NCBI GenBank assembly: GCA_021083345.1
Contig: JAJGRE010000007.1
Span: 186,001 to 250,000, forward strand
Direction of reading: 5' to 3'
DNA length: 64,000 nt
DNA from: Calditrichales bacterium MX18-03
Lineage (GTDB): Bacteria; Bacillota; Clostridia; Lutisporales; Lutisporaceae
This document shows positions 3,054 through 15,667 of this stretch, in pieces; within the stretch, counting starts at the first letter, position 1, and each line of letters begins with the position of its first letter. The notes under the pieces are model-generated. The model saw nothing but the letters and a program-made list of their open reading frames with translations, was not told the origin of the DNA and made no database searches. A program made the translations under genes and the position numbers.

Positions 3054-3917
3054 TTATCGGCTACTGTCCATCTTATCGGAAATCATGGCGAACTCCTCCA
3101 GGGAAAGGGTTTCTCCCCGCCGGTTCTCCTCTATGTCGCATGCTTCCAGCAGCGCCTTGATGCTTTCCTTGGATCGTCCGAAGTTGCCGGCGCTTAAGGC
3201 ATTCAGCAGCGTTTTCCGCCTCTGGGCAAAAGACGCCTTGACCACTTTAAAGAACAACGCCTCATCCTGTACCTGCACCGCCGGTTTTTCCCGGATATCC
3301 AATCGGACCACCATAGAGTCCACCTCCGGCTGCGGTATAAAAACCTCCGATGGAACGATAAGCACTTTATGGGGCTCACAGTAATACTGCACCGCCACCG
3401 TCAAAGCGCCGTAGTCCTTGCCTCCCGGCGGTGCGCAGAGCCTGTCGCCGACTTCCTTCTGCACCATGACGGTTATGCTTTTCAAATGGAGTTTTTCCTC
3501 CAGGAGCTTCATGATTATGGGTGTGGTGATATAATACGGCAGGTTAGCTACCACCTTGGCCGGCACGCTGCCGAAATGCTCTGCCAGCACAGCTCTCAGA
3601 TCCAGCTTTAGGATATCGTCATTGATGACCTGCACATTGTCATAACCGAACAATACCACTTTGAGCACCGGAATCAACTGCCTGTCGATTTCCACCGCCA
3701 GCACCTTCCCAGCCTTTTGGCTCAAACCGGTGGTCAGCGCACCCAAACCCGGTCCGATCTCCAGCACGCAATCCTCCTTGGAAACACCGGCGCTTTCTAT
3801 GATTGCCTTTAGAACGCCCTCATCTGTCAGAAAGTTTTGTCCGAACTTCTTGGCAGCCTTCAGATTGTATTTCTTCAGCAGCTCTTTGGTAGCTGCGGAT
3901 ACTGTCGTCTCTTTCAT
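3054..3917 (-). CDS. rsmA: 16S rRNA dimethyladenosine transferase RsmA (KsgA)
   Basis: Dimethylates the two adjacent adenosines in the 3' hairpin of 16S rRNA, a late step of small-subunit assembly. The 287-residue length is normal. Visible are the N-terminal KKFGQNFLTD, the S-adenosylmethionine loop LEIGPGLGALT at about 52-62, and the catalytic NLPYYI motif near 125-130. It follows rnmV with 15 bp between, the same rnmV-ksgA order found in Bacillus, so the two are probably cotranscribed. Start ATG has AGAGGATG upstream. Confidence 0.95.
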   Translation of the reverse strand: MKETTVSAATKELLKKYNLKAAKKFGQNFLTDEGVLKAIIESAGVSKEDCVLEIGPGLGALTTGLSQKAGKVLAVEIDRQLIPVLKVVLFGYDNVQVINDDILKLDLRAVLAEHFGSVPAKVVANLPYYITTPIIMKLLEEKLHLKSITVMVQKEVGDRLCAPPGGKDYGALTVAVQYYCEPHKVLIVPSEVFIPQPEVDSMVVRLDIREKPAVQVQDEALFFKVVKASFAQRRKTLLNALSAGNFGRSKESIKALLEACDIEENRRGETLSLEEFAMISDKMDSSR

Positions 3918-3932
3918 TGTTCATCCTCTTCC

Positions 3933-4496
3933 TTATGAATTGTTGTCCTGTCCCTGGGCAGCCACAACAGCGCATTCCAGTTCTTCTCTGGTTATCCCGT
4001 ACCGGTTCAGCCTGTTGACCAGCTGCTTCGCGTTGGCATATCCGATGCCCAATGCCGCGCCTACCTTTCTCCGCATCCTGACGGCACCTTCGTTGCCGGT
4101 AAGCCCATATGCCGCCATGTCGCCATTGGTGAAGAGGTTGACTGCCTCCTCCTTCTCACAGCGCGCCAGAGCCAATGCCCTCCGGATGCTGTCCGGGTTG
4201 GCGTTCTCAACACCGATATCTGCTTCCTCCTGGGCTTCCTCCAAGGGGACGAAGGCATGTCTGACACCCTTTACCTTCTGTGCAATAATCCCGCGGATCT
4301 TTTCTCCCATGAAGTCAGGGTCGGTCAGAACGATGACCCCGTGCCTTTCCTGGGCGGTTTTTATCAGTGCCAGGGTCTTTTGCGTCAGTCCGAAGCCGCT
4401 GGTGGTGATAATGTCGGCATCAACGGCCCGCCTCACGGCAGCTGCATCATTTTTGCCTTCTACTACGATAGTTTCCTTTATTCTGTCTTTTTCCAT
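3933..4496 (-). CDS. rnmV: Ribonuclease M5 (5S rRNA maturase)
   Basis: Toprim-domain endonuclease that cuts both sides of the 5S rRNA precursor, acting with ribosomal protein L18. The Toprim glutamate motif IVVEGKND is at residues 10-17 and the DxD motif VLTDPDFMGEKIR at about 55-67. Length (187 residues) and position immediately before rsmA are typical. Ribosome site AGAGGT lies 4 nt before the ATG. Confidence 0.93.
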   Translation of the reverse strand: MEKDRIKETIVVEGKNDAAAVRRAVDADIITTSGFGLTQKTLALIKTAQERHGVIVLTDPDFMGEKIRGIIAQKVKGVRHAFVPLEEAQEEADIGVENANPDSIRRALALARCEKEEAVNLFTNGDMAAYGLTGNEGAVRMRRKVGAALGIGYANAKQLVNRLNRYGITREELECAVVAAQGQDNNS

Positions 4497-12856: not shown

Positions 12857-13363
12857 TTAGAAAAACCTGCTGCATATCATTACCGACGCCACGACCCCCG
12901 TCACCTCCGCAATCAGTGCCGCTGCAAGGGTATGCCGTATATTGCGTATGCCGACTGAGCCAAAATAAACCGTAATAGTGTAAAAAATCGTCTCAGTACT
13001 GCTCATAATCACAGAGGCCAATACACCAGGGTAGCTGTCGGCGCCGACCCGCTTCAGAATATCAGCCAGGATGCCCAATGCACCGCTGCCGGACAGCGGC
13101 TTCATAATGACCAGCGGCACCACCTCTGCCGGCAGCCCGATAAATGCCGTCACAGGCTTCAATATGTACAGGATGAAATCCAGCCCGCCGGAGCACCGGA
13201 GCATGGCAATCGCCATCAGCATGGCGACAATGTACGGGAAGATCTTGAGGGTGATGTTCATCCCCTCTACGGCACCCTCGATGAAGGCTTCGTACACCTT
13301 CACGCCTTTCAAATGCCCGTAAGCCAGGATCAGCAAAATAATGACCGGTATGATATAGCTCAT
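12857..13363 (-). CDS. spmB: Spore maturation protein B
   Basis: Integral membrane protein of 168 residues of the nucleoside-recognition (Gate) domain family. SpmA and SpmB act together in the dehydration of the spore core in Bacillus. Recognisable conserved stretches are VEGMNITLKIFPYIVAML, IMKPLSGSGALGIL and IMSSTETIFYTITVYFG. The start at 13363 overlaps the spmA stop as ATGA; the frame is open further upstream but that part runs antisense-like through spmA and is not coding. Confidence 0.92.
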   Translation of the reverse strand: MSYIIPVIILLILAYGHLKGVKVYEAFIEGAVEGMNITLKIFPYIVAMLMAIAMLRCSGGLDFILYILKPVTAFIGLPAEVVPLVIMKPLSGSGALGILADILKRVGADSYPGVLASVIMSSTETIFYTITVYFGSVGIRNIRHTLAAALIAEVTGVVASVMICSRFF

Positions 13364-13947
13364 CTTACCACTCCACTCACTCTCTCCAGCAGCTTGCAGG
13401 AGATAATGCCCACAGTGAGGGCTGCCAGCGAAGCCAACAGTGCCGGCACGATGATGAAGCCGGGATTGGCTGAGCCTGCTGAGCTGCGGAGGCTCATGAC
13501 AGTGGCTGGGATGAACACCGGGGGGGCAGCGTTGATGACAAGGAAAAGGCACATGGCATTGGTGGCGGACTCCTTGCGGAGGTTCAGCTTCTGAAGCTCC
13601 TGCATGGCCTTGAGGCCCAGCGGTGTTGCGGCGTTGCCAAGGCCCAGCATGTTCGATGTGATGTTCATGATCATCGAACCCATGGCGCTGCTCTTGGCAG
13701 GCAGCTCGGGGAACAACAGCCGCATCACCGGCCGGATGGCAGCTGCCATCCGGTCCACAAGGCCGGACTTCTCCGCCACCTTCAGCACGCCGCACCACAG
13801 CATCATGCCGCCCACCAGCCCCAGCCCCAGCTCCACTGACGACTGCATCGACTTCATGATCGCCTCCGTCACCAGGCTCAGCCGGTTACCTGTGGCGGCA
13901 AATGCCACTGCGATGGCAATCATATAAAACCACAGTTTGTTGATCAT
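13360..13947 (-). CDS. spmA: Spore maturation protein A
   Basis: Membrane protein of about 195 residues, partner of SpmB in spore core dehydration. Conserved pieces include the start MINKLWFYMIAIAV, GGMMLWCGVLKVAE, MIMNITSNMLGLGNAATPLGLKAM and the C-terminal ATNAMCLFLVINAAPP. The gene is translationally coupled to spmB through ATGA. Start 13947 is used because GGTGG lies 7 nt upstream; note that this site is itself part of an inverted repeat at 13953-13995. Confidence 0.92.
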   Translation of the reverse strand: MINKLWFYMIAIAVAFAATGNRLSLVTEAIMKSMQSSVELGLGLVGGMMLWCGVLKVAEKSGLVDRMAAAIRPVMRLLFPELPAKSSAMGSMIMNITSNMLGLGNAATPLGLKAMQELQKLNLRKESATNAMCLFLVINAAPPVFIPATVMSLRSSAGSANPGFIIVPALLASLAALTVGIISCKLLERVSGVVR

Positions 13948-13952
13948 ACAAA

Positions 13953-13995
13953 AACCACCATTCATTTTAGTATAATAATAAAATGTATGGTGGTT
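13953..13995. repeat. Inverted repeat upstream of spmA (copy 1)
   Basis: Arms 13953-13969 and 13979-13995 are 17 bp with one mismatch around a 9-nt AT-rich centre. Its outer arm (AACCACCATTCATTT) is identical to that of a second copy at 14723. The inner end of the left arm provides the ribosome binding site of spmA on the minus strand. No T-run is convincing enough to call it a terminator. Confidence 0.8.
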
Positions 13996-14092
13996 GGGGT
14001 GCGTTTATCACCCAGACTAACATAGAGAAAGGATCTATTTATGGGAGAAGATCCAAATATGTTTCGGTCCTTATCTTACACTTTCTTTCATA

Positions 14093-14701
14093 TCATTCTC
14101 CTCCATGGTTGTTCCTCAAATACTTAGGAACCTCCACCTCAGCTGCAGCGTTGATCGTATCAACAGTGATTCCTGCCCTTCTGGCCATATATACAAGATC
14201 ATTCACAGTCGAAGTATAAAAGGATGTCCCCACCACCAGCAGCTTATCAGCAGAGCCAATCATTTCAACCGCATTAAAATAGTAAGGAATCTGATCTCCA
14301 TATAAAACGACATCAGGTTCAAGCAAATCTCCGCATTCTTCACAGTATAGAGAATTCCTGACCCAATTGAACTCATACTTCTTACCACATTTCTTGCATA
14401 AGACCCAGTCCAGATTCCCATGTATTTCGATTACTTCCTTACTTCCAGCCTTTCTGTGAAGCCCATCCACGTTCATTGTGACAATAGGTACCCCGTATTG
14501 AGCCAAGGCGTTATGAGCCGCATTGGGCACAGCTTTCTCTATGTTTTGTTTCATCGTGCTCAGAATTCTGTAAAATTCCTCGGGGTTTGATATAAAATAT
14601 CTTCTGCTCAGCTTGTCTCTCAAGTCACCCATCTCTTCAAACGTCGGAATTCCGCTTGCCTTGGATATCCCCGCTCCTGTAAGGGCTACAATTTTATGCA
14701 T
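14093..14701 (-). CDS. Sir2 family NAD-dependent protein deacylase
   Basis: Compact stand-alone sirtuin of about 203 residues that removes acyl groups from lysines using NAD. Visible motifs are IVALTGAGISKASGIPTF (NAD-binding), TMNVDGLH (normally TQN-D-LH, so Gln is replaced by Met), the catalytic IHG, two CxxC zinc pairs (CKKC and CEEC), VVLYGD (for FGE) and GTS. The start at 14701 is chosen for its AGGAGG site 7 nt upstream. It lies alone between the MinD-like gene and spmA, has its own promoter and is bracketed by two related inverted repeats. The Gln to Met change and short length mean deacylase activity is likely but not certain. Confidence 0.87.
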   Translation of the reverse strand: MHKIVALTGAGISKASGIPTFEEMGDLRDKLSRRYFISNPEEFYRILSTMKQNIEKAVPNAAHNALAQYGVPIVTMNVDGLHRKAGSKEVIEIHGNLDWVLCKKCGKKYEFNWVRNSLYCEECGDLLEPDVVLYGDQIPYYFNAVEMIGSADKLLVVGTSFYTSTVNDLVYMARRAGITVDTINAAAEVEVPKYLRNNHGGE

Positions 14702-14722
14702 CCTACTTCCTCCTGTAATAGA

Positions 14723-14760
14723 AACCACCATTCATTTCTCAAATTAAATGGATGGTGGTT
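14723..14760. repeat. Inverted repeat upstream of the sirtuin (copy 2)
   Basis: Arms 14723-14737 and 14746-14760, 15 bp with one mismatch at the same position as in copy 1, centre 8 nt. It lies in the 5' leader of the sirtuin, 22 bp before the start codon. Outer 15 bases of the left arm are identical with copy 1. Confidence 0.8.
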
Positions 14761-14923: not shown

Positions 14924-15667
14924 CTACAACACATACGCCACAGTCTCCCCCAAAAGCCTCCTGACGATATCCCAGTACGCTTTGCCTGCCTCGCTGTCCT
15001 TGTCTTCTATGATGCGCTGTCCTTTATATACCGATGCAATGACCTTTTCTTCATAGGGGATCAGTCCCAGCAGGTCGGCAGCCAGGATCTTGACAATGTC
15101 GTCCTGTCCCAGGCAGACGCCAAGTTCAGTCAAAAGCGGCTTGACGTTGTTCAGGATCAACTTATAGTCCCGGATACCGGCACTTTTCAGCAAGCTGATG
15201 ATTCTATGAGCGTCCCTGACTGCCCCAACGTCCGGTTCGGTCATCACAATCACCTTGTCAGCCAAGCGTACGGAATGATAGAAGCTTTGCTCCAGTCCCG
15301 ACGGGCAATCGACCAGAATAAAGTCATATTGCTTTCTCAGAAAGCCAAACAGCTCCTTCATGGTGTCCTGCTGGCCGTTATCATGGCAGCAGCTGATCAG
15401 CTTAAGGTAGTTCAGGTTCTCTGACACGCTGTCTTTCACAATCTCATATTCGAGGCAGCTGTCCATGTCCTGCCGGTCTTCATCCGCTGCCAGCCTTGCC
15501 GTACCGGAGTCAAAGCCCATTACAAATTCCATATCCTTAAATTCACAGTATACATCTGAGATCAGCACCCGTTTCCCAGACCGTGCCAGACCTGTCCCGA
15601 TATTGGCAGCTGCAAGTGTTTTTCCCACACCGCCCTTGCCGGACGTAATGACATACACCTCACCCAT
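14924..15667 (-). CDS. MinD/ParA-like P-loop ATPase
   Basis: Deviant-Walker ATPase of 247 residues, closest in look to MinD. The Walker A motif SGKGGVGKT (residues 9-17) keeps both lysines. FKDMEFVMGFDSG corresponds to the MinD segment after the switch region, and FILVDCPSGLEQSF is the Walker B region. The end AYWDIVRRLLGE resembles an amphipathic membrane-targeting helix. No minC, minE or divIVA lies beside it, so whether it positions the division site or serves another membrane process is open. GGAGGGG lies 7 nt before the ATG. Confidence 0.82.
   Translation of the reverse strand: MGEVYVITSGKGGVGKTLAAANIGTGLARSGKRVLISDVYCEFKDMEFVMGFDSGTARLAADEDRQDMDSCLEYEIVKDSVSENLNYLKLISCCHDNGQQDTMKELFGFLRKQYDFILVDCPSGLEQSFYHSVRLADKVIVMTEPDVGAVRDAHRIISLLKSAGIRDYKLILNNVKPLLTELGVCLGQDDIVKILAADLLGLIPYEEKVIASVYKGQRIIEDKDSEAGKAYWDIVRRLLGETVAYVL

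Follow-up and report, generated by a model that had tools for sequence, protein, structure and literature searches.

The window, i.e. the whole 64,000-nucleotide stretch of DNA analyzed in this work, contains two short inverted repeats that bracket a sirtuin gene. The explanation that we favor, with a probability of about 0.6 given the sequences compared, is that the first repeat (dyad 1, 13953-13995, minus strand) is the leader hairpin of the spmA-spmB operon, which would harbor an internal sigma-E-type promoter and silence read-through, and that the second one (dyad 2, 14723-14760, minus strand) is a decaying duplicate of this leader. According to this model, the leader would be a hairpin of 13-15 bp, (i) whose 5′ strand would hold a sigma-E-type -10 element, (ii) whose 3′ strand would hold the ribosome-binding site (RBS) of spmA, and (iii) which would be followed by a T-tract. 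In the cell, a transcript coming from the upstream gene would fold the hairpin, leading to termination and/or to a hidden spmA RBS. A transcript initiated with a sporulation sigma factor would start in the loop and would be devoid of the 5′ strand, so that spmA would be translated. Dyad 2 would be a duplicated leader copy, now decaying, upstream of sir2, a gene that now sits between the two copies.

The two dyads and the sirtuin interval

Both dyads had been pointed out in a preliminary description of the window, and their positions are confirmed here: each has a single mismatch, at the same inner position, and on the + strand the same 16 nt (AAACCACCATTCATTT) occur in both left arms. Both stems are predicted to fold, dyad 1 with a free energy of -17.2 kcal/mol (z -3.9) and dyad 2 with one of -18.3 kcal/mol (z -2.5). 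As initially described, each dyad precedes a gene start on the minus strand, spmA (13360-13947) for dyad 1 and sir2 (14093-14701) for dyad 2, and sir2 is the sole gene between them. The spmA product carries a Gate domain (PF07670) and its orthologues are adjoined by spmB, which was located at 12857-13363 (minus strand) by orthologue comparison. The sir2 product, a short NAD-dependent deacylase-like sirtuin, belongs to PF02146 (E 1.5e-31), and the scores of all NCBIfam deacylase models against it are below cut-off. A role as a defence sirtuin was considered and dropped since no PADLOC match was present. The MinD-like ATPase encoded nearby (14924-15667) scores 191.6 bits, under the MinD cut-off of 212.9. 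It had also been proposed that sir2 has its own promoter. This could not be established: the region includes six sigma-70-like sites versus 3.6 +/- 2.0 in shuffled sequences, and the best site directed towards sir2 (14868-14840) is located upstream of dyad 2, outside the inter-dyad interval.

The genome-wide search for the arm that the same description called for revealed that these two dyads are its only copies in the 4.69-Mb genome. When one mismatch at most is allowed, AACCACCATNCATTT is found at seven genomic places, corresponding to the four dyad arms and three unpaired single sites (two places for the control). Among 61 genomes, the exact dyad pattern was detected in two, the present one (both dyads) and G004, which carries a single inverted repeat with a different interior; a stricter pattern had no match in viral contigs. 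Like REP or MITE palindromes, the dyads are short intergenic inverted repeats, but only two copies exist, both next to spmA, and the REP candidate, which implies many dispersed copies, was therefore rejected. A search of Rfam for known riboswitches or other RNAs gave four matches, all far under the gathering score of the family.

A leader hairpin of spmA in the family

Comparison with relatives indicates that the hairpin is an element of spmA and not of the sirtuin gene, because it is found in all the spmA leaders of the family and is absent at nine sirtuin orthologues. The gene spmA was found in 47 of the 61 genomes, and 30 leaders were read, 17 from the family of the present genome and 13 from other families. 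This family includes 22 genomes, which are also the order-level set; five were left out, either devoid of any spmA match (G003 and G013) or giving a partial spmA match without the 5′ end (G004, G011 and G014). A hairpin immediately precedes the spmA start in 17/17 family leaders whose spmA is complete at its 5′ end (z between -2.4 and -6.5), and excess structure is absent from 13/13 leaders of other families (z -0.95 to +1.33). A covariance model, R1, was built from the 16 relatives, excluding the present genome. It recovers both dyads of the window, dyad 1 with 45.3 bits and dyad 2 with 27.5 bits, and its best match in 39 genomes outside the family only reaches E 0.02. The 16 relatives carry the spmA dyad, yet none of them has a sirtuin gene upstream of spmA. 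Furthermore, an R1 search around the nine sirtuin genes closest to sir2 (orthologues with 53-63% identity) found no dyad. One additional R1 match, in G014 (C176:2585-2621), was discarded by eye as an ordinary terminator-like hairpin beside a different gene.

The stem covaries. In the alignment of the 17 leaders, whose rows are related genomes, the covariation score is 0.264, compared to 0.139 for shuffled alignments (0/500) and 0.028-0.084 for slid partners, and the stem shows 17 double-change cells versus 7.2. Of the five covariation measures, two do not exceed chance (403/500 for the pairs showing a double change and 87/500 for pair types), and RNAalifold yields a weak consensus from the same alignment (only eight pairs, -3.9 kcal/mol). 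From one genus to another, the arms differ through compensatory changes, some of them G-U pairs, which disrupt the symmetry of the DNA.

A promoter-like box and the putative ribosome-binding site in opposite arms

The motif CATA is present in the left arm of all 17 leaders, even where its partner base no longer pairs; in columns 45, 47 and 49 of the alignment, all 14 unpaired cells stem from departures of the right arm. In 16 of these leaders, ATA is found by eye 15-16 nt upstream of CATA (L028 has ATT instead), i.e. an ATA -35 and a CATA-type -10 near the published spacing. In the window, the putative -10 (CATACATT, 13982-13989, minus strand) lies within the left arm of dyad 1 and the putative -35 (ATAAA, 14004-14008, minus strand) precedes it. 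In Clostridioides difficile, the sigma-E -35 element is reported as ATA and spmA-spmB as having a sigma-E promoter (PMC3789822); for this same operon, an ATA -35 and a sigma-K-like -10 are given (PMC3789822). Sigma-E genes listed for Bacillus subtilis include dacB-spmAB and spoIVA, and the two sigma-E elements (8 nt and 10 nt) are described as 12 +/- 1 bp apart (PMC517825). The left-arm CATA and the upstream ATA thus match a putative sigma-E-type sporulation promoter, from which sigma E would initiate transcription within the loop. Genome-wide, ATAA-N13-15-CATACANT occurs at 10 places versus eight for the control; it is not enriched and therefore the box motif is weak on its own. In the same family, ATA-N15-CATA is found in most of the 20 rows of spoIVA leaders, and the spoIIIAA leaders are mixed for this layout (rows L207 and L220 have unusable starts and most spoIIIAA leaders outside genus g2 missed the regular expression).

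The right arm contains the putative Shine-Dalgarno sequence of spmA (GGTGG, 13955-13959, minus strand), the only G-rich stretch seen by eye before the start. The T-tract (13948-13954, minus strand) extends from the stem end to the start codon; five or six of its seven bases are T in 17/17 family leaders, compared to one to five in the 13 outside leaders. The RBS is predicted to lie within the 3′ strand of the helix of the long transcript in 15/17 leaders, the two failures being L024 and L025. Assuming that the internal start is located 7 nt past the -10, the resulting leader would be 22-28 nt long and devoid of the left arm. Under this assumption, the predicted cost of opening the RBS in the present genome is 17.3 kcal/mol for the read-through transcript versus 9.6 kcal/mol for the internal start (medians for the 17 leaders, 19.7 versus 4.0 kcal/mol). 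The leader could therefore act as an insulator, in which read-through transcripts would undergo termination or remain untranslated and those made in sporulation would be free. In addition, SpmA may have a short N-terminal extension since an in-frame ATG or GTG is found within the right arm in 15/17 leaders (13963-13965 in the window).

This predicted arrangement recalls the leader of the lysozyme gene e of phage T4, whose RBS is locked in long early transcripts, as are those of soc, 49 and I-TevI (PMC3014915). The predicted RBS lock in the long transcript is common to both. As for a promoter in the DNA of the 5′ strand, the spmA leaders show a conserved box layout that resembles the published one and makes it a candidate. 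Unlike gene e, the spmA leader belongs to a bacterial sporulation operon, has sigma-E-type boxes and a T-tract behind the stem, and is a prediction from sequence. For sigG of B. subtilis, a large hairpin that does not form in the transcript from the sigG promoter has been proposed to block read-through translation, and a small RBS hairpin reduces translation (PMC5942855); gene and sigma factor differ from those of the spmA leader. Our literature search on a spmA leader hairpin or on its link with sigma E retrieved no paper by title or start of abstract, and the subscription literature may differ. If the model is true, it would provide a bacterial, order-wide instance of a switch for which phage T4 is the best-known example, where a hairpin silences read-through and conceals a developmental promoter in one arm. 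It would also offer a sporulation operon a simple means to remain insulated amid changing upstream neighbours.

Probable leader duplication and alternative explanations

Dyad 2 looks like a decayed duplicate of the spmA leader because it has lost the invariant CATA, replaced by CATC, and leaves the sir2 RBS uncovered. The AGGAGG of sir2 falls outside dyad 2 (unpaired probability 0.82 with the dyad and 0.81 without it), and its predicted opening cost is 6.0 kcal/mol with the dyad versus 4.7 kcal/mol without it. An independent parallel was found in G001, whose sequence comparison shows a leader duplication with a gene between the copies. This genome carries, in this order, a distal leader followed by a spmA remnant, a gene whose 844-aa product has an HtrA-like protease domain, and spmA preceded by a complete leader. 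Its upstream DNA is identical to that of G017 at 643 of 922 positions, the alignment running via this hairpin of the distal leader into the initial codons of spmA, and the remnant behind this hairpin beats 2000/2000 shuffles. In the distal copy, CATT replaces CATA. The tail of dyad 2 resembles the tail of this distal copy (10/2000 shuffles as good), and a spmA codon remnant sought beside dyad 2 was undetectable (421/2000 shuffles as good). For the present genome, we therefore only infer that sir2 sits between duplicated leaders. More speculatively, the spmA leader could be an insulating module that combines promoter, terminator and RBS lock in about 60 bp, with a palindrome that tends to duplicate locally. 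Genes such as sir2 here or the HtrA-like gene in G001 would repeatedly settle between the old and the live copies, spmA keeping the complete leader and the newcomer a decaying one.

An alternative explanation, less probable in our opinion, is that dyad 1 is merely the intrinsic terminator of the upstream gene, overlapping the spmA promoter, and that the hiding of the RBS is a by-product. The position of the T-tract, directly behind the stem in 17/17 leaders, fits this explanation, as does a co-directional upstream gene that ends only 63-88 nt away in 11/17 of them. Furthermore, L024 and L025 have a weak hairpin, and the nearest main co-directional gene listed upstream of their spmA ends at a distance of 505 and 899 nt. 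However, strong hairpins are kept in L014, L018 and L022, for which no close co-directional upstream gene is listed, and a rule-based terminator scan of the region, which admits only loops of 3-8, found none. Termination is also compatible with the main explanation and the two are not exclusive.

The preliminary description offered two other possibilities, a regulator or RNA structure controlling both genes and a sirtuin gene acquired as a cassette with short palindromic ends. An RNA structure is retained for spmA, as a conserved and covarying leader hairpin; joint control of spmA and sir2 is not, dyad 2 lacking the invariant CATA and being clear of the sir2 RBS. A dimeric repressor governing both genes from the two dyads would account for their identical arms and for the overlap with the putative -10. 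It is nevertheless very improbable, given the compensatory changes and G-U pairs that spoil the symmetry of an operator, the presence of only two sites in the genome and the missing CATA of dyad 2. The mobile cassette (MITE- or IS-like) is the least probable of all. Although two copies bracket sir2, and two leader copies another gene in G001, dyad 1 stands without sir2 in 16 relatives and the ends do not travel with the gene, as no dyad surrounds the nine sirtuin orthologues. In addition, there are no further genomic copies, none of the neighbouring proteins that were searched could be recognised as a transposase and the viral contigs gave no match. The idea of a gene insertion thus survives for G001, where a gene lies between old and live leader copies, but not in its cassette form.

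As side observations, the spmA leader is constant across L012-L028 while the upstream gene changes between genera. In genus g2 (L114:2068-3402 and 3402-4000; L115; L112), a helix-turn-helix/TPR-like regulator is encoded upstream of spmA and is followed, still upstream of spmA, by a small secreted-peptide-like ORF of about 40 codons on the opposite strand. By eye, they look like a peptide quorum-sensing pair. In G007, a weaker hairpin resembling the spmA leader (L114:3843-3880; R1, 18.1 bits, E 0.042) lies upstream of the spmA hairpin, and similar extra weak hairpins are visible upstream of spmA in G001 and G017.
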